DNA of 64,000 bases from Sporocytophaga myxococcoides DSM 11118 (GTDB lineage: Bacteria > Bacteroidota > Bacteroidia > Cytophagales > Cytophagaceae). Both the position numbers and the translations under genes were made by a program. Below the pieces are notes generated by a model. The model ran no database searches and was not told the DNA's origin. It worked only from the letters and a program-made list of their open reading frames with translations. The stretch is from NCBI RefSeq assembly GCF_000426725.1, contig NZ_KE384560.1:642960-706959 (forward strand). Direction: 5' to 3'. Within the stretch, counting starts at the first letter, position 1; each line of letters opens with the position of its first letter. Positions 3,354 through 9,813 of the stretch are shown here, one piece after another.

Positions 3354-3393
3354 AATGAAATCAAGAGTATTATCAATAATACTCTTGATTTTT

Positions 3394-4446
3394 TTAATGT
3401 TCAATTTCTTCTTCTGTTAATACTTTTTTATACTCTTTTTGGAAATATAATTTCTCCATTAATTTTCTATTAGGCATAATTTGTTTGTCAAGATAGGTGA
3501 GTTTCCAATTGGTTCCGTCTTCAGGATCTTCAGCAGCAAATTTGGCAATACCTGCATCAGCCCAAATTTCATATCTGGTTATAAGTATCGTGGATAATTT
3601 TAAAACGGGCTTCAGGAGTTTTAACCATTTGTTTTTAATGGCCATTTGCACAAAGACTTGAATTTTTGTCTCATTAGCATTAACAGGGACAAGAAAGCTG
3701 GTTATAATAAAGGAAACAGCCCGTTCAGTTGTTTTGTGTTTATCAGTCCAATAGTTTTTGTATGATCCATGCAACGGCCTGAACTTGAATATCCAATCAT
3801 TGTGATAGTGATCGCCTTTTTTTATCCCGAAAAATGAACTTAGAAACATGGGCAAGTTTCTGTATTTACAGTCGAGAAAACCATAGGTCTGTTCTTCTTC
3901 AATTTTAACCTTGAAGTCTACTGTATTAAGATCATTAGAACTGGGACCAATAAAAGTATGTACTTTAAACGCATGCTCAATTTCACCAAAGTTATCAAGT
4001 GCAACTTTTACAGGAGCATTAAAGTGAGAAGAAAATTTATCTATAAATTCATATCCAGGTTGCATAAACTCAGGAAATGTGTCATCAGGTGTGTTCTGGT
4101 TAGCAATCCAGATAAAGCCATATTTATCCCAGGTCTTTAAGCTATGTACTTCGCAGGTTTTGTTTGGTACGGAAGGACTCTGAGCTTGTCCTGATGCATT
4201 GATCCTCCAGGCATGATAGGCACATACAAGTTCTCCTTCTTTATTTATTTTGCCTTTAGATAATAGAGCTCCCCGGTGTGGACATGCTATGGGAAATGCA
4301 ACAGGTTTACCATTGTTGTCTCTATAGAGTACATATTTTTTTCCATTCACTGTTACCTCTTTTATCTTTTTCTTTAATGAAGAAGATTTTAGTACAGGAT
4401 GAGGGAATCTAAGTATATCAGACTCTTCGCAATTATGTTTTTTCAT
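3394..4446 (-). CDS. Rieske-type aromatic-ring-hydroxylating oxygenase (terminal oxygenase)
   Basis: A 350-residue terminal oxygenase subunit. The N-terminal Rieske [2Fe-2S] domain has its ligands at Cys55, His57 (CPHRG), Cys75 and His78 (CAYHAW). The catalytic domain has the mononuclear iron motif around residues 151-163 (DNFGEIEHAFKVH), with His158 and His163 as likely iron ligands. The length matches single-component-type oxygenases related to pheophorbide a, choline or vanillate oxygenases. No ferredoxin or reductase gene lies nearby, so electrons must come from elsewhere. It is the last gene of the four-gene operon with the ScoE-like oxygenase, starting 12 bases after the methyltransferase stop. 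It probably oxidises or demethylates the operon's product; this role is inferred. Confidence 0.9.
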   Translation of the reverse strand: MKKHNCEESDILRFPHPVLKSSSLKKKIKEVTVNGKKYVLYRDNNGKPVAFPIACPHRGALLSKGKINKEGELVCAYHAWRINASGQAQSPSVPNKTCEVHSLKTWDKYGFIWIANQNTPDDTFPEFMQPGYEFIDKFSSHFNAPVKVALDNFGEIEHAFKVHTFIGPSSNDLNTVDFKVKIEEEQTYGFLDCKYRNLPMFLSSFFGIKKGDHYHNDWIFKFRPLHGSYKNYWTDKHKTTERAVSFIITSFLVPVNANETKIQVFVQMAIKNKWLKLLKPVLKLSTILITRYEIWADAGIAKFAAEDPEDGTNWKLTYLDKQIMPNRKLMEKLYFQKEYKKVLTEEEIEH

Positions 4447-4457
4447 ACAAGGTCAAT

Positions 4458-5345
4458 TTATTTATAAGAAATTCTAGCATGGACCATTCTTACATGTCCA
4501 AGTGTCTGGCCTATAATCTTTCCTTTCCTGTTTCTCAGATACATATTCTCTTGCTCCTCTGGTCCGCAATCAGTTATTACAGACAAGTTTATTTTGGATA
4601 AGAATGAACTTATTTCATCCGCATTCAGGCCAAATAAAAATGGTTCTTTAATTTTTTTCAGCCATTTAGCGATTTCTTTTCCTCCATGGGTACTGTGGTC
4701 ACCATTTACGAAGTCTTTTGTAGCATAGTCGAACACGATAGAACTTCCGATCGCGCATTGAGATATAAAGCTGAGAACTTGTACAACGACCTTTTCAGGC
4801 AGATAATAAGAAACTCCTTCCCACAAAAAAAGAGTACGTTTATTTTTGGAGAATCCAGCTTCCATTAAAGCTTCATGAAAAGGCCTTTCATTAAAGTCTA
4901 ATGGAATAAAATGAATATTAGAAGGAATTTCTTCAGGAAGGTGAACCAACTTCTTTCTTTTATTCCTCTGAGTTCCGGGAAAGTCAACTTCAAATACTTT
5001 TATTTTCTTGAGATGTATTTTAAATCTTATTCCTCTTGTATCATATCCTGCACCTAGTATCACTACTTGTTCTATATCTCCGGAAATTTCCTTGAGAAGG
5101 ATTTCGTCAAAGAACTTAGTTCTGATGATAGCGAAACAATAACTCCCGGGAGACATCGCTTCAATTATCTTTTGGAGAAGCCATTGAGGTTTTATGCTTG
5201 TAATAAGACGGTACTTAAATCCAATGAAAAATTTTGCAAGGTAATCTTCGCACTGGATTAGAATATCCTCTTCTTTAGCCGTGGCTGCTCTGAGTGCAGC
5301 CACGGTTTCCGCAGAGCGGATTGCATTGTTTTTTTGTTTATTCAT
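4458..5345 (-). CDS. LCM-family (class I) SAM-dependent methyltransferase
   Basis: The protein resembles the leucine carboxyl methyltransferase/TIGR00027-type family: an N-terminal TKE-like segment (ATAKEEDILIQCEDYLAKFF), the SAM-binding loop VVILGAGYDTRGIRF, the acidic motif FEVDFPGTQ, and LDFNERP followed by LFLWEGVSYYLP. Family members often methylate carboxylates or hydroxyls of natural products. The frame is open from 5492, but the ATG at 5345 (295 residues) fits the family length and overlaps the end of the thioesterase gene by 8 bases, typical of translational coupling. As a member of the putative isonitrile operon it could methylate a carboxyl or hydroxyl of the product; the substrate cannot be read from the sequence. 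Confidence 0.85.
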   Translation of the reverse strand: MNKQKNNAIRSAETVAALRAATAKEEDILIQCEDYLAKFFIGFKYRLITSIKPQWLLQKIIEAMSPGSYCFAIIRTKFFDEILLKEISGDIEQVVILGAGYDTRGIRFKIHLKKIKVFEVDFPGTQRNKRKKLVHLPEEIPSNIHFIPLDFNERPFHEALMEAGFSKNKRTLFLWEGVSYYLPEKVVVQVLSFISQCAIGSSIVFDYATKDFVNGDHSTHGGKEIAKWLKKIKEPFLFGLNADEISSFLSKINLSVITDCGPEEQENMYLRNRKGKIIGQTLGHVRMVHARISYK

Positions 5346-5919
5346 GAATCGGATTGAAGGCAAGTACGACAGAACCTTTGCATTTAACACCATCTTCATC
5401 TGAGAAGGAGACAGTCGTGTAAGCGAAGTGAGCATCATTAGAGGAAATGACCTTATCAATTGATATCTCTCCATAAAAGCCATCGCTGTCAAGCTGTTTT
5501 AGGAATTTTCCTTCGATCTTTACTATGAGCATTGAGGAAAGCTGCTGTTTAAGGAAGATGTCATAGTCAAGTTTTATTTTACTTTCCCAGATTGGTATGA
5601 GCCTTTGAAAGATCCCTTTCTGAAGGCATTTTCCAAACATTACATATGCTAGCTGATTAAAACAAATATTGAACTCGACTGCATTGAAATGTCCTGTATC
5701 ATCAATGTAACAGCTTTCAGGGATTGAGAATTTTCCTCTGGCAGTGATTAAGCTGGAGGTAGAATTAGGCTCCAGCTTTTCCAGGAAATGAGTGATCTCA
5801 GCTTCATGCAGATATTTAGCATGATTTCTATAAGGCTTTAATATAAGATCAAGAAAATCGGGTGAAATTTCTATTGTCGGAGTTTCGCTTTTATAAGTGT
5901 TATTTAGGGCAGTTGTCAT
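5338..5919 (-). CDS. FcoT/ScoD-like (Rv0098-type) thioesterase of isonitrile biosynthesis
   Basis: A 193-residue hot-dog-fold protein. I recognise the FcoT signature: YIDDTGHFNAVE at 71-82, CFNQLAY at 86-92 and QLSSMLI at 126-132, all nearly identical to mycobacterial Rv0098 as I recall it. Rv0098 was described as a long-chain acyl-CoA thioesterase; its Streptomyces homologue ScoD acts in isonitrile lipopeptide biosynthesis, adding glycine to an alpha,beta-unsaturated acyl-ACP and releasing the product. The gene starts 7 bases after the stop of the ScoE-like gene, the same pairing seen in those clusters. Family and pairing are well supported; the actual acyl substrate here is unknown because no ACP or acyl-ACP ligase is adjacent. 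Confidence 0.82.
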   Translation of the reverse strand: MTTALNNTYKSETPTIEISPDFLDLILKPYRNHAKYLHEAEITHFLEKLEPNSTSSLITARGKFSIPESCYIDDTGHFNAVEFNICFNQLAYVMFGKCLQKGIFQRLIPIWESKIKLDYDIFLKQQLSSMLIVKIEGKFLKQLDSDGFYGEISIDKVISSNDAHFAYTTVSFSDEDGVKCKGSVVLAFNPIHE

Positions 5920-5926
5920 AGTAGTA

Positions 5927-6844
5927 TCAGTTTTGTAATGTTGTTACATCTTCATGGAGTTGAGAGGCACACAAAGGAAATGCATCCTTTAAAGTAATTC
6001 TGTACATCATAGTTTCTTCTTCTTTCTTCACATCTTCGTGAATGTTTTCAGTGATGGCTTTTTTTCGTCCTGAACAGTGAGCAAGAAAGCGATTATCCCA
6101 TATAATAAGATCACCGAGAGACCAGGTAACTTCTCTGATAAACTGATCTGTTTCAGCAAAATCAAATATTTCGTTTAGTATCCTTTGAGAATCATCCAAA
6201 GACTTGTTTTTAATTCCTACAGTAAAGCCTCTTGTAGCATATACAATTTTTTCTTTAGTATATGGATGTTCAAGTATGGCAGGATGATTAACTGGTGGGG
6301 CATAGAAGTCAATCATTTCCAGCATTTCAGAGATATCGATACCTGCATCTTCAGGGCGGATTTTATATTTCCATCTGCCGCTATGGATAAATTCTTCACC
6401 TTCTATTTCATTAAGAAGATTCTTTGGAAGTGATTTGTATACTGCGTTCATGTCAATGAACTTAGTTGTTCTTTTAACAGTTGATGGAAGTACCTTAGGA
6501 AGTAACATAGTAAGTACTTTCGGATCCTTTTCAAATGAAGTATCAGAGTGCCAATAGCCACCGGTACGAGGTACTCCTATCTGTTTTCCATCTTTCTTTA
6601 CATTTGATGATACGAATATCAGTGGGAATTTTGGGTGATGATAGTTCTCCTGCAGATAGGGTATTGGAGTACCAAACCTAGTAGCAAAGTTGCAATAAGC
6701 TTCATCAGAAATATTCTGATTCTTCAGAATGATGATTCTGTTTTTGTAAAGCTCATTTTGCAATGTACTGATTTCAGCATCTGAAATGTTGTTTACGTCA
6801 ACGCCGTGTATATTACAGCCGATAGCAATTTTTTCTGTTTTCAT
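5927..6844 (-). CDS. ScoE/Rv0097-like Fe(II)/2-oxoglutarate oxygenase (probable isonitrile synthase)
   Basis: A 305-residue TauD-fold enzyme. The iron triad is His99-x-Asp101 (GGYWHSDTSF) and His256 (DNRFLAH), and Arg282 (YRITL) is the likely 2-oxoglutarate anchor. Beyond the generic TauD fold it shares subfamily features with ScoE/Rv0097: NYHHPKFPLIFVSS at 67-80, GVPRTGGYWH at 90-99, KIRP at 161-164 and a GDLIIWDNR block. ScoE converts an N-(carboxymethyl)amino acid into an isonitrile by oxidative decarboxylation. Position 102 is Thr where ScoE has Tyr after the HxD, so the substrate may differ. It is the first gene of a four-gene operon with the FcoT-like thioesterase. The subfamily assignment rests on remembered sequences. 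Confidence 0.82.
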   Translation of the reverse strand: MKTEKIAIGCNIHGVDVNNISDAEISTLQNELYKNRIIILKNQNISDEAYCNFATRFGTPIPYLQENYHHPKFPLIFVSSNVKKDGKQIGVPRTGGYWHSDTSFEKDPKVLTMLLPKVLPSTVKRTTKFIDMNAVYKSLPKNLLNEIEGEEFIHSGRWKYKIRPEDAGIDISEMLEMIDFYAPPVNHPAILEHPYTKEKIVYATRGFTVGIKNKSLDDSQRILNEIFDFAETDQFIREVTWSLGDLIIWDNRFLAHCSGRKKAITENIHEDVKKEEETMMYRITLKDAFPLCASQLHEDVTTLQN

Positions 6845-7801
6845 AAATGTCTTTTTTAATAAATTTTTTCCTGAATATTATAAATGATATAGTGCGCCTG
6901 GCCCAGATTTATATTACCTGGATGGTGATACTGATGAAGCCAAAACGGTACTGGTTTATTATGCCTTGAAAGACACAATAGGTTGGTGGTTTAAGAATGA
7001 AGCGCGCTTTTCTTCTTAGATACATAAGGGTTATAGAAGGACCTTGTCAGAAACGTAGCTAGTGTTTATGACCATAACCCGGATCAAAAGTATATAATAA
7101 AAAAATATCTAAAAATTTTTGAAATACTTTTTTTGCTTTTGTTATTAAAAATGCAGTAAAGGGGTAGAAGCCTTTAAATGTTTGTGTTTTAGGAAATTAA
7201 AATACATCGTAAATGCTCGCTGTTTCGGCGATAAAGAGTTTAATGTTATGGGTAATTGGTATTTTATAAAGTGAATGTTGAATTAATCATTGTTGTATCT
7301 ATAGCAGCATCTTTAGTTGTTATACTTACAAAATATGGTTGAGTTTTTAAGATAAAGTCTGTTAATCTCAAAATATATCTATAAAGTAATGCTGATTGAT
7401 TAAGTCGGCAATATAGTGGTATTAAGAATAGGTAATCTATCATCTTCATGATTTATTCCAATGGAATTGTTTTTGCATCTCAGGCTTTCAAGTTATATTA
7501 AAATTTATGGGTGATGTTAACTCTATAAAAGTTAGGGAACTCAACAAGGCATTGATGGAAATATCTTTAAAAGGATATATTACTGGCATGGTGGCAGAAG
7601 GTTTTCATTTTATGGATATTCATTTTTATTAGGTGTTATTTGGAAGATCCCTTAGAGCGGAATTTTAATAAATTAGTTTGTGTTTTATTTTATTGATTTT
7701 TAATTGCTTATTCTTTTGTTGGAAAACTTTTGTTTTGGGGGGGCGTACAGATTTCTGGTAAAAAGTGAAAATTTAATTACTATATAGAAAGCATTTATTT
7801 T
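6845..7801. other. Gene-poor region upstream of the isonitrile-like operon
   Basis: About 950 AT-rich bases with no convincing gene. Two short open stretches deserve mention. One is the plus-strand frame 6888-7019, open without a start codon and reading APGPDLYYLDGDTDEAKTVL near its beginning, which looks like a protein remnant. The other is a 41-codon plus-strand frame 7507-7632. A 61-codon minus-strand frame at 7264-7449 looks spurious. The promoter of the operon ending at 3394 should lie just above 6844, but I see no clear consensus. Confidence 0.4.
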
Positions 7802-8545
7802 ATGAACATAGAAATCTTTTCATCTTACTTTTAATTTTTCAGTTTAATTTAAAAGTTTTTGCTCAGGTCCCAACGAATGGACTTGTTGGTTATTTCCCTT
7901 TTAATGGTAATGCCAATGATTTATCTGGTGGCGCAAATAATGGCGTTGTCAATGGTGCAGTTCTTGTTGAAGATAGATTCGGAAATCCGAATTCTGCATA
8001 TTATTTTGATGGAGTTAATGATTACATAAAAATCAGCGGAGCAGAAGAGTTGAGGAATCCTACCTATACTTATAGCTTTTGGGTAAAGGTAGCATCTTAT
8101 CCATCAAATGAGTCGGCTGGCGCGATGCTTGAATTCGGAAGTGTTCCGGCTCAGCCTAAATATGGAATTAATGTTTCGTTAAATAATAATTATCTTACTT
8201 CTCAAGGTAGGGTATATACAAGTGGAAGTACGAATTTTACGTGGATAAGTACTAAAAATACAGCCTTACCTTCACTCGCAAGATGGTATCATATCTTGGT
8301 CTCAAGAAATGATAAAATGAACGTATGGGTCGATGGAGAATTAGTAAGTACTTCTTCAGTGGATGGATTAACTCAATACTATACTACTCCTCTTGATGGA
8401 TACATTGATAGTGTATTCCGGACAAGTGAATCAGGAAGAGGCGATTGTTGACTTATCTTCATGGGGGGGACCTGGAATATATCTTGTTCAGGTTTTGGAT
8501 GGTGGAAATAACATAAAAGAAACCAGAAAAATAGTTCTTCAATAA
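7802..8545 (+). pseudogene. Decayed LamG-domain T9SS cargo protein
   Basis: The main open frame encodes a LamG/concanavalin-like lectin domain (GLVGYFPFNGNANDLSGG near 7877, then AYYFDGVNDYIKI, YTYSFWVK, ARWYHILVSRNDKMNVWVDG). Upstream the same frame reads RNLFILLLIFQFNLKVFAQ, a signal peptide, but the only sensible ATG (7802) is one base out of frame; restoring one A would give MKHRNLF. At about 8405-8450 the LamG frame runs into a stop, while another frame continues as EEAIVDLSSWGGPGIYLVQV and ends at 8545, a typical T9SS sorting tail. The end of LamG and the usual linker are missing, so an internal deletion plus frameshift is likely. Sequencing error cannot explain the missing segment. Confidence 0.7.
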
Positions 8546-8557
8546 TAGATGAGATAT

Positions 8558-8606
8558 AAAAAGAAAGCCCTTTGATTCATATGGATCAAAGGGCTTTCTT
8601 TTTATA
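8558..8606. terminator. Bidirectional rho-independent terminator
   Basis: A 17-bp stem (AAAGAAAGCCCTTTGAT at 8560-8576 pairing with 8585-8601) with an 8-base loop, flanked by A and T runs on both sides. It sits between the convergent LamG pseudogene and the efflux operon and can serve both. Confidence 0.85.
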
Positions 8607-8622
8607 TTAAGTGAAATTTGCC

Positions 8623-9813
8623 TTAATCAGCAAAAACACCACCTATCTTCTTCTTCCTTTCCATTTCTATAGCCATCACATTGTTGACGGCTACGAATAT
8701 TTCATTTTCTACTGGATTTGGGAAAATAACTTCTGCAAGCTTTTCATTTTTGTCTCCAAGATCTACTTTATGTTTGCTGAGCTTAATCTTACCATCTTTT
8801 ACTTTCTTATCGGTTAAGAAAATATAGTAAAGGTCATCTTCCTGCAGTATGCTGGAACGTGGCACTGTAGGAGCAGGAGTATTATTACTCTTATTCTCTA
8901 ATGTCGCCATGATGTTCATATCTGGAAGTATGATGCTTTTGTCAGGAGCAGAGAATTTAACAAAGACATTGATGGCTTTAGTGCTTTCATCAATTACTTT
9001 ATCAATATTAAATACAGTCCCCTGCACTTCTCCGAATGAATGGTTGATAAAGTCAAGGGTTACAGGTTGACCGGACTTAATAAGGTCTATATCTTTCTCA
9101 TAAACATAAATTTCAGCAAGAAGCTGGCTCACATCTATCAATTCAGCAAGGATAGTTTCTGATGAAGCAATCATACCAACACTCACCGGCAAAGAATGGA
9201 TATATCCGGAGATAGGAGCTTTAATGGATAATTTCGTTCTTATTGCATCAGATCCATTACCTTCCATGTCAATGCCTAATAAAGCTAGTTTAGCTTTCAG
9301 AGATGCTTGTCTGTTTAAGGAAGCTCTATGTTTGGTTTGTACAGTTTGAAGATCCACAAGCGCTCCTACATTGTTTTTTCTGAGTTCTTCTTGTCTGGTC
9401 AGTTCAATAGTTAAAAAATCCGTTTCATTTTTTGCCGCAAAATATTCTTCTTGTAGTTCTACAAGTCTCATGCTGCTTAATTCAATAAGAGGTTTTCCTT
9501 TCTCCACATAATCACCTTCATGAACAAATACTTTTTCTATTTTTCCCTGTACATTGGAGCTTACCTCTGCACGATAATTGGGTAAGGCTACAATTTTTCC
9601 ATTAAAATGTATGTATGACTCCAAAGCCTTTTTCTCAGGGGCAACAAGACTTATTTCAAGTCTTCTCAATTGGTCCTCGGTTAGTTCAATGGAGTTCTCA
9701 TCAATGACTGGTGCTGAAGCACTTTTATTATCTTTGTGACATGCTTGCAATATAATAATGAGCATGCAACATAGATAGCTTGATATTAATTTATGCGAAA
9801 TTGAATTTATCAT
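8623..9813 (-). CDS. RND efflux periplasmic adaptor (CzcB/CusB family lipoprotein)
   Basis: A 396-residue membrane fusion protein. An N-terminal hydrophobic segment ends in a lipobox (LQAC, Cys25), so it is probably anchored as a lipoprotein. The body follows the usual adaptor order: a lipoyl-like half (VQGKIEKVFVHEGDYVEKGKPLIEL near 90-113), a helical hairpin (about 115-185), the second lipoyl half (IKAPISGYIHSLPVSVG), beta-barrel and membrane-proximal domains. It links the inner-membrane pump to the outer-membrane channel and may present metal to the pump. I see no His- or Met-rich metal-binding extension. It is the last gene of the czcCBA-type operon, beginning 23 bases after the pump gene. 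Confidence 0.9.
   Translation of the reverse strand: MINSISHKLISSYLCCMLIIILQACHKDNKSASAPVIDENSIELTEDQLRRLEISLVAPEKKALESYIHFNGKIVALPNYRAEVSSNVQGKIEKVFVHEGDYVEKGKPLIELSSMRLVELQEEYFAAKNETDFLTIELTRQEELRKNNVGALVDLQTVQTKHRASLNRQASLKAKLALLGIDMEGNGSDAIRTKLSIKAPISGYIHSLPVSVGMIASSETILAELIDVSQLLAEIYVYEKDIDLIKSGQPVTLDFINHSFGEVQGTVFNIDKVIDESTKAINVFVKFSAPDKSIILPDMNIMATLENKSNNTPAPTVPRSSILQEDDLYYIFLTDKKVKDGKIKLSKHKVDLGDKNEKLAEVIFPNPVENEIFVAVNNVMAIEMERKKKIGGVFAD

Follow-up and report, generated by a model that had tools for sequence, protein, structure and literature searches.

A four-gene operon of Sporocytophaga myxococcoides belongs to a separate, peptide-synthetase-free lineage of the ScoE/ScoD route

The 64,000-nucleotide stretch of DNA analysed here (the window) lies on contig C19 of the 6.34 Mb genome of Sporocytophaga myxococcoides DSM 11118; Sporocytophaga is a soil cellulose degrader. 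The window carries a minus-strand operon of four genes (6844 to 3394), referred to below as the cassette. The first gene (5927-6844, 305 amino acids [aa]) encodes a ScoE-type Fe(II)/2-oxoglutarate oxygenase, predicted from profile, tree, active site and fold to be an isonitrile-forming oxidase/decarboxylase. It is followed by an FcoT/ScoD-type thioesterase (5338-5919, 193 aa), predicted from profile and tree to add glycine to a (2E)-enoyl-acyl carrier protein (ACP) and to hydrolyse the thioester, and by an S-adenosylmethionine-dependent methyltransferase of the LCM/TIGR00027 family (4458-5345, 295 aa), a predicted carboxyl O-methyltransferase by its profile matches. The last gene (3394-4446, 350 aa) encodes the oxygenase component of a Rieske non-haem iron oxygenase, recognised by profile and conserved ligands. 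The junctions are, in order, a gap of 7 nt, an overlap of 8 bp (the in-frame ATG of the methyltransferase gene lies at 5345, within the FcoT gene) and a gap of 11 nt, the widest of the three. A first-pass annotation of this DNA had described the same four genes as a compact isonitrile-biosynthesis-like operon, and that layout is borne out. Together with the relatives described below, the operon is a separate lineage of the ScoE/ScoD route that lacks a non-ribosomal peptide synthetase (NRPS) and occurs in three lineages; it is not an isonitrile-lipopeptide operon.

The oxygenase matches the NCBIfam ScoE model NF049937 with 247 bits (E 2.1e-73), as against 98 bits for the taurine dioxygenase model NF007104. 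Among solved structures it is closest to 6l86 (E 7.9e-56) and to ScoE itself (6dch, E 2.2e-55), with mycobacterial enzymes next and other TauD-family structures only from E 1e-19 on. A structure model (pLDDT 91.7) has ScoE (6l6w) as its best fold match (E 1.5e-34, TMq 0.86), followed by SfaA, MmaE and Rv0097, all ahead of any other TauD-family enzyme; the first taurine dioxygenase stands at rank 37. A TauD-type sulfonate dioxygenase was considered and rejected, as the protein is nearer to ScoE than to TauD by profile, tree and fold.

The active site agrees with this assignment at most positions. The sequence motifs and the iron triad (His99/Asp101/His256) pointed out at first pass are present, and the triad aligns with His132/Asp134/His295 of ScoE. 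Of 12 ScoE positions compared, 10 are kept: Tyr96, Tyr101, His132, Asp134 and Arg157 correspond to Y63, Y68, H99, D101 and R125, and Lys193, Arg195, Asp198, His295 and Arg310 to K161, R163, D166, H256 and R282. The two changes are Tyr97 to Leu64 and His299 to Arg260. The kept residues include those that bind the substrate (Tyr96, Lys193 and Arg310; here Y63, K161 and R282) and 2-oxoglutarate (Arg157; here R125). According to an excerpt of a study of ScoE (PMC7949033), Lys193 and Arg310 bind both carboxylates of the free CABA substrate, and a Y96F variant gives zero product. Y96, Y101, R157, K193, D198 and R310 (ScoE numbering) and the triad are retained in all five cassette rows of our alignment (three of them near-identical Sporocytophaga sequences) and in 81/81 other FcoT-linked rows (some of them near-copies), whereas position 157 is Gly in 9/9 TauD-family rows.

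The protein encoded at 5338-5919 belongs to the FcoT family, matching Pfam PF10862 with 140.3 bits (gathering cut-off 27). It also matches NF049938, the ScoD "(2E)-enoyl-ACP glycyltransferase" (E 7.1e-34, 116.9 bits). The best solved relatives are 5wsy/5wsx (E 6e-25), which we take to be SAV606, and then Rv0098 (E 3e-16). Residues C70, Y71, I72, T75, G76, H77, N79, V81, E82, N84, N88 and Q89 are invariant in the 37 aligned rows from which this set was drawn. For the FcoT-type thioesterase CmiS1, parts of PMC11284099 describe a Michael addition of glycine to an enoyl thioester and subsequent hydrolysis, and state that thioesterases of this type feed isonitrile and beta-amino acid pathways alike.

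The methyltransferase matches PF04072 (133.2 bits) and TIGR00027 (180 bits, cut-off 93.55); enzymes of the LCM family, such as TcmP, are able to methylate carboxyls. The Rieske protein matches PF00355 (66.6 bits) and reaches none of the NCBIfam equivalog cut-offs. Its C55, H57, C75 and H78, as well as E155, H158 and H163, are invariant in 4/4 aligned rows; the Rieske cluster ligands and the two iron histidines are thus intact, with Glu155 standing where the closest solved relative has Asp. All four operon genes are under purifying selection, with dN/dS values of 0.041, 0.033, 0.068 and 0.086 in the one species pair compared (the window's genome, G000, and G395). A relic operon was rejected on these values (0.033-0.086).

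In a tree of 95 ScoE rows, including three rows from the PDB (ScoE, SfaA and Rv0097) and seven plasmid TauD-family rows as outgroup, the FcoT-linked and PDB rows split from the outgroup with support of 99/96. The oxygenase therefore lies inside the FcoT-linked ScoE family, and the proposal of an isonitrile-type enzyme pair in a Bacteroidota host is supported. Within this family it clusters with the oxygenases of another Sporocytophaga locus (L011) and of two further loci, L014 and L015 (100/97). The sister of this group comprises the remaining 84 rows (95/82) and is itself made up of two clades, one (96/94) with Bacteroidota, methanotrophs, planctomycetes, a myxobacterium, some cyanobacteria and one further gammaproteobacterium, and the other (100/100) with actinobacteria, other cyanobacteria and one gammaproteobacterium. 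The FcoT tree recovers the same cassette clade (5 of 38 rows, 98/97). Judged by sequence, the window's ScoE and FcoT are a third deep branch beside the two other clades of the ScoE family. Owing to long-branch warnings, mostly concerning the outgroup, the cassette clade's early placement is insecure; its unity is secure.

The cassette also stands apart in its gene company. A scan with the FcoT pattern (one genome per species, 84,980 species) gave 203 relatives, of which the best 80 loci were all examined and their neighbouring genes counted at E 1e-5. Homologs of an AMP-ligase lie near 72/80 loci and homologs of a polyketide synthase (PKS) or NRPS near 76/80, the L014 locus being included for a lone ketosynthase only. 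Ligase and/or PKS/NRPS homologs were likewise found near 76/80 loci, one of them through this ketosynthase. The four loci with neither are two from Sporocytophaga (L012 and L013), L015 and L024, where the contig stops 4.5 kb past FcoT. A methyltransferase is found near four loci (L012 to L015; two Sporocytophaga, one other Bacteroidota and one gammaproteobacterium), none of which has a ligase nearby, and a Rieske protein near three (L012 to L014). Neither the window nor the 14 kb to its left contains homologs of ligase, NRPS, PKS, ketosynthase, ACP or dehydratase at E 1e-3. With the NRPS and PKS-NRPS proteins of an NRPS-linked locus (L008) as queries, the window, the 14 kb to its left and L015 gave no match at E 1e-3, and the sole match in L014 was its lone ketosynthase (the L014 and L015 stretches cover approximately 20 kb each); in the window and the same 14 kb, the L008 ligase and the L014 carrier protein likewise lack homologs. 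The lack of ligase, carrier protein and NRPS indicates that the operon is a pathway of another kind than the isonitrile lipopeptide clusters.

The two cassettes outside Sporocytophaga are informative about the steps on either side of the enzyme pair. The L014 proteins are 64% (ScoE), 51% (FcoT), 52% (methyltransferase) and 61% (Rieske) identical to those of the window. Directly before its ScoE gene, at the usual place of the ligase, L014 has genes for a FabA-domain protein, a ketosynthase and a PP-binding carrier protein, and a fatty-acid-desaturase-family gene follows the cassette. These dehydratase-, ketosynthase- and carrier-like genes in the place of the ligase suggest fatty-acid synthesis as a possible source of the enoyl substrate. 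L015 encodes ScoE, FcoT, a second TauD-family oxygenase and a methyltransferase. As an oxygenase of another family is present in this Rieske-less cassette, we read the cassettes as a single pathway whose oxidation step can be exchanged. The public record of L014 (JADCRZ010000048.1) bears the name Williamsia (Actinomycetota), which is misleading. This label was rejected because a genome search places L014 in the window's class; the Bacteroidota matches of a neighbouring L014 protein reach 76% identity (57/148 genomes matched), and the GC content of L014 is 0.494.

The closest named loci to the window are Sporocytophaga metagenome-assembled genomes, and the operon is present in 4/4 genomes of the genus searched. 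FcoT was found above cut-off in 1/395 genomes of the class and in 1/395 genomes sampled across the phylum (in each case the window's own), in 7/390 genomes of the order and in 5/59 relatives, including four genomes of the genus. It was found in none of 291 genomes of the family of G080; as that search gave no match of any sort and the 14 control genomes gave none in any FcoT search, absence from this family is not proven. Sub-cut-off matches with internal stops occur in G935 and G1304. A scan of viral contigs yielded no FcoT relatives. At first pass the pathway had been noted as described mainly in actinobacteria. The ScoE/FcoT pair is not restricted to these: it also occurs in other Bacteroidota, methanotrophs, planctomycetes, cyanobacteria and a myxobacterium. 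A genome of the window's own family (G400) has the ordinary form, with ligase, ScoE, FcoT, a KS-C-A hybrid (KS, ketosynthase), a C-A NRPS in which a thioesterase is weakly matched, and a MATE transporter.

Several of the other loci merit a brief description. Ten are from Methylococcaceae (L019, L021, L022, L026, L028, L029, L031, L035, L037 and L038), and the methanotroph loci mostly have a ligase and PKS/NRPS; Methylomonas koyamae clusters contain two tandem ScoE genes (L028:2422-4278 and L035:8096-9956). Isonitrile clusters could give methane oxidisers a type of chalkophore that is not methanobactin, and a search of the open-access literature for methanotroph isonitriles gave nothing evidently on topic. 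A plasmid of the cyanobacterium Halotia branconii (L116) has a ScoE/FcoT/ACP/NRPS cluster, beside which lie genes for a ligase, for MFS transporters and for a TonB-dependent siderophore receptor. A Burkholderia stagnalis plasmid cluster (L114:7793-15276), in which no FcoT is annotated, encodes a TauD-family oxygenase (approximately 30% identical to ScoE), 5-aminolevulinate synthase, ketoacyl-ACP synthase III and MFS proteins.

We consider that the four-gene cassette probably makes an isonitrile without an NRPS. In the pathway proposed, fatty-acid synthesis would supply a short (2E)-enoyl-ACP, and the FcoT/ScoD protein would add glycine to its beta carbon and hydrolyse the thioester to release a free N-carboxymethyl-beta-amino acid. 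In two rounds with 2-oxoglutarate and O2, the ScoE-type oxygenase would then convert the N-carboxymethyl group to an isonitrile with loss of CO2, giving a beta-isocyano acid. An excerpt of PMC7949033 gives a consumption of two 2-oxoglutarate per isonitrile for ScoE, starting from the free acid. The LCM-family methyltransferase would form a methyl ester on the remaining carboxylate and the Rieske oxygenase would oxidise the chain, in either order. The kept Lys161 and Arg282 point to a free dicarboxylate substrate, so methylation should come after the oxygenase. The chemistry of the FcoT/ScoD and ScoE steps is that reported for relatives, and we infer the origin of the substrate, its short chain, the ester and the Rieske step. 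The methyl ester is a plausible detail on which we would put slightly less than even chances. As for chain length, Phe207 of the oxygenase occupies the position of Gly204 in Rv0097 (the natural Gly being taken from alignment row u170747 and PDB titles) and of Phe239 in ScoE; as Phe is found in 72/81 other rows, it is no more than a weak hint at a short-chain substrate.

Several observations weigh against this proposal. The oxygenase and the thioesterase miss the NCBIfam equivalog cut-offs of ScoE (247 of 400 bits) and ScoD (116.9 of 250 bits), so the oxygenase is a member of the wider ScoE family and not of the equivalog. Of the first-pass description of the pair as close relatives of ScoE and ScoD, family membership stands by profile and tree and closeness does not, both proteins being divergent relatives; the NRPS-linked L008 protein likewise misses the ScoE cut-off (276 of 400 bits). 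His299 of ScoE is replaced by Arg260, and an excerpt of PMC7949033 reports that H299Q abolishes isonitrile and succinate production by the S. coeruleorubidus enzyme. This replacement argues against a simple transfer of function from ScoE, although His is not universal in the family: it is present in 45/81 other FcoT-linked rows and replaced in 36/81, NRPS-linked relatives included. Supply of the substrate by fatty-acid synthesis is a possibility drawn from one other lineage (L014), in which the dehydratase, ketosynthase and ACP score above Pfam but below NCBIfam cut-offs, so the exact reactions assigned to them are predictions. The L014 ketosynthase finds no ortholog in Sporocytophaga (best match 34%), where housekeeping fatty-acid synthesis would thus have to supply the substrate. 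The structure model of the Rieske protein, built from four rows, is unusable (pLDDT 40). Finally, unlinked ketosynthase-bearing frames of large size (up to 5157 aa) occur in the window's genome, and these could take up the product.

These frames bear on an alternative that we regard as unlikely, namely that the cassette makes only an isonitrile acid building block, which an unlinked PKS/NRPS and ligase assemble into a metabolite as in the isonitrile lipopeptides. Several very large ketosynthase-bearing frames do lie on the same contig (C19:229-290 kb), approximately 350 kb from the operon, and at the great majority of the 80 loci the pair has ligase and/or PKS/NRPS homologs close by. However, three separate lineages (Sporocytophaga, L014 and L015) lack ligase and NRPS in the stretches covered (64 kb plus 14 kb for the window, approximately 20 kb each for L014 and L015) and have a methyltransferase, the cassette ScoE and FcoT form a clade of their own, and a carboxyl methyltransferase would presumably block loading.

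Rather than an isonitrile, a drifted oxygenase could make another product such as a hydroxylated or N-dealkylated beta-amino acid, with a beta-amino ester as the end product. The loss of His299 agrees with such drift, as do the cassette-specific residues G96, S100 and T102 beside the triad, none of which is shared by more than 3% of the 81 other FcoT-linked rows; parts of PMC11284099 also place CmiS1-type thioesterases in beta-amino acid pathways. We nevertheless think it improbable, as the substrate-holding Y96, K193 and R310 are kept, residue 299 varies in many NRPS-linked relatives, and the operon partners are a methyltransferase and a Rieske oxygenase and not a CmiS2-like FAD oxidase.

A role in copper handling, in which an isonitrile copper ligand would be made and exported together with an adjacent CusABC-like efflux system, is very improbable: CusABC-like genes do lie directly upstream on the same strand at 4/4 Sporocytophaga loci, and mycobacterial diisonitrile lipopeptides are chalkophores (according to an excerpt of PMC9600254), but 0.64-1.78 kb separate the two gene sets and a conserved block precedes the operon, CusA of G397 is split over three overlapping frames (L010:13201-16358; real decay or assembly error) while its operon is intact, the L014 and L015 stretches have no homologs of CusA, CusB or an outer-membrane factor, and the known chalkophores carry two isonitriles per molecule where one is expected here. 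The metal-binding role suggested at first pass thus has no direct support, CusABC-type genes adjoining only the Sporocytophaga cassettes among those seen, and a copper role of a Sporocytophaga isonitrile is possible but unsupported. In L015, an MMPL-family piece lies downstream on the opposite strand.

The conserved block is a non-coding stretch of 130 bp (minus strand, 7031-7160) that lies 5' of the ScoE gene. It is 94.7%, 90.8% and 90.9% identical to its counterparts in G396, G395 and G397, in each case more than any of the 11 genes compared with that species (84-92%), and the surrounding stretch (6860-7310) has one copy in G000 and one in G395. This high identity and single copy suggest that the operon probably has a conserved promoter or control region. 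We make no claim for an operator palindrome in the block (TTATGGTCATAA, 7066-7077), which is perfect in only 2/4 species, and an Rfam scan of 6700-8700 gave 32 matches up to E 1, none of which reached the gathering score. The spacer between CusB and ScoE (6845-8622) is 1778 bp in the window and 635-648 bp in the three other Sporocytophaga, a difference of approximately 1.1 kb; the window's spacer contains a piece of a Laminin_G_3 gene (8050-8451). At the other end, directly past the Rieske gene and between two convergent genes, lies a 16-pair hairpin (3357-3392, listed on the plus strand only), a possible operon terminator; the region has three terminator-like sites, which is not above shuffled sequence (mean 3.7).

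The known isonitrile lipopeptide clusters of actinobacteria are sco (Streptomyces coeruleorubidus), sfa and Rv0096-Rv0101/mma. The Sporocytophaga operon shares with them adjacent ScoE-type and ScoD/FcoT-type genes, the active site save for Tyr97 and His299, and the fold; it differs in having a methyltransferase and a Rieske oxygenase instead of acyl-ACP ligase, carrier protein and NRPS, and in its deep separate clade. The PKS/NRPS-type clusters of Bacteroidota and methanotrophs (L008/L025, L016, L017, L023, L032, L040, L053, L019 and others) have the same enzyme pair, partly in the same phylum and even, in G400, the same family. Unlike the cassette, they have an architecture of their own (ligase-ScoE-FcoT-PKS/NRPS), and the window's ScoE falls outside their clade. 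Aerocyanidin/amycomicin is an isonitrile fatty-acid-like product made without a peptide. According to an excerpt of PMC13273461, this epoxy-isonitrile pathway uses AmcQ, AmcB and P450s, whereas no P450 is among the four operon genes. The CmiS1/SAV606 system, which makes the beta-amino acid starter of cremimycin, is alike in its FcoT-type dual-function thioesterase that adds glycine, but there, as described in parts of PMC11284099, the partner CmiS2 is an FAD-dependent dehydrogenase leading to a beta-amino acid, where the cassette has a ScoE-type partner. In the open-access literature, to which the search was confined (subscription papers being outside its scope), we recognised no description of an NRPS-free ScoE/ScoD cassette, and searches there on isonitriles in Bacteroidota and on isonitriles combined with a Rieske enzyme and a methyl ester yielded nothing.

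So far, the ScoE/ScoD route is known chiefly for isonitriles built into copper-binding lipopeptides, and we know of no description of beta-isocyano fatty acids made by this route. We tentatively suggest, as a possibility somewhat short of even odds, that the cassettes are a third deep ScoE/ScoD lineage, without a peptide synthetase, that would turn enoyl-ACP from fatty-acid synthesis into small, carboxyl-methylated and oxidised beta-isocyano fatty acids, and that may be the older form and the source of the NRPS-linked clusters. If the NRPS-free four-gene version does operate as proposed, the ScoE/ScoD route can yield stand-alone small molecules, and the operon would be a small system with which isonitriles could be made in the laboratory and would add a rare Bacteroidota case. 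The operon also makes the origin of the pathway testable and points to an as yet undescribed kind of isonitrile.

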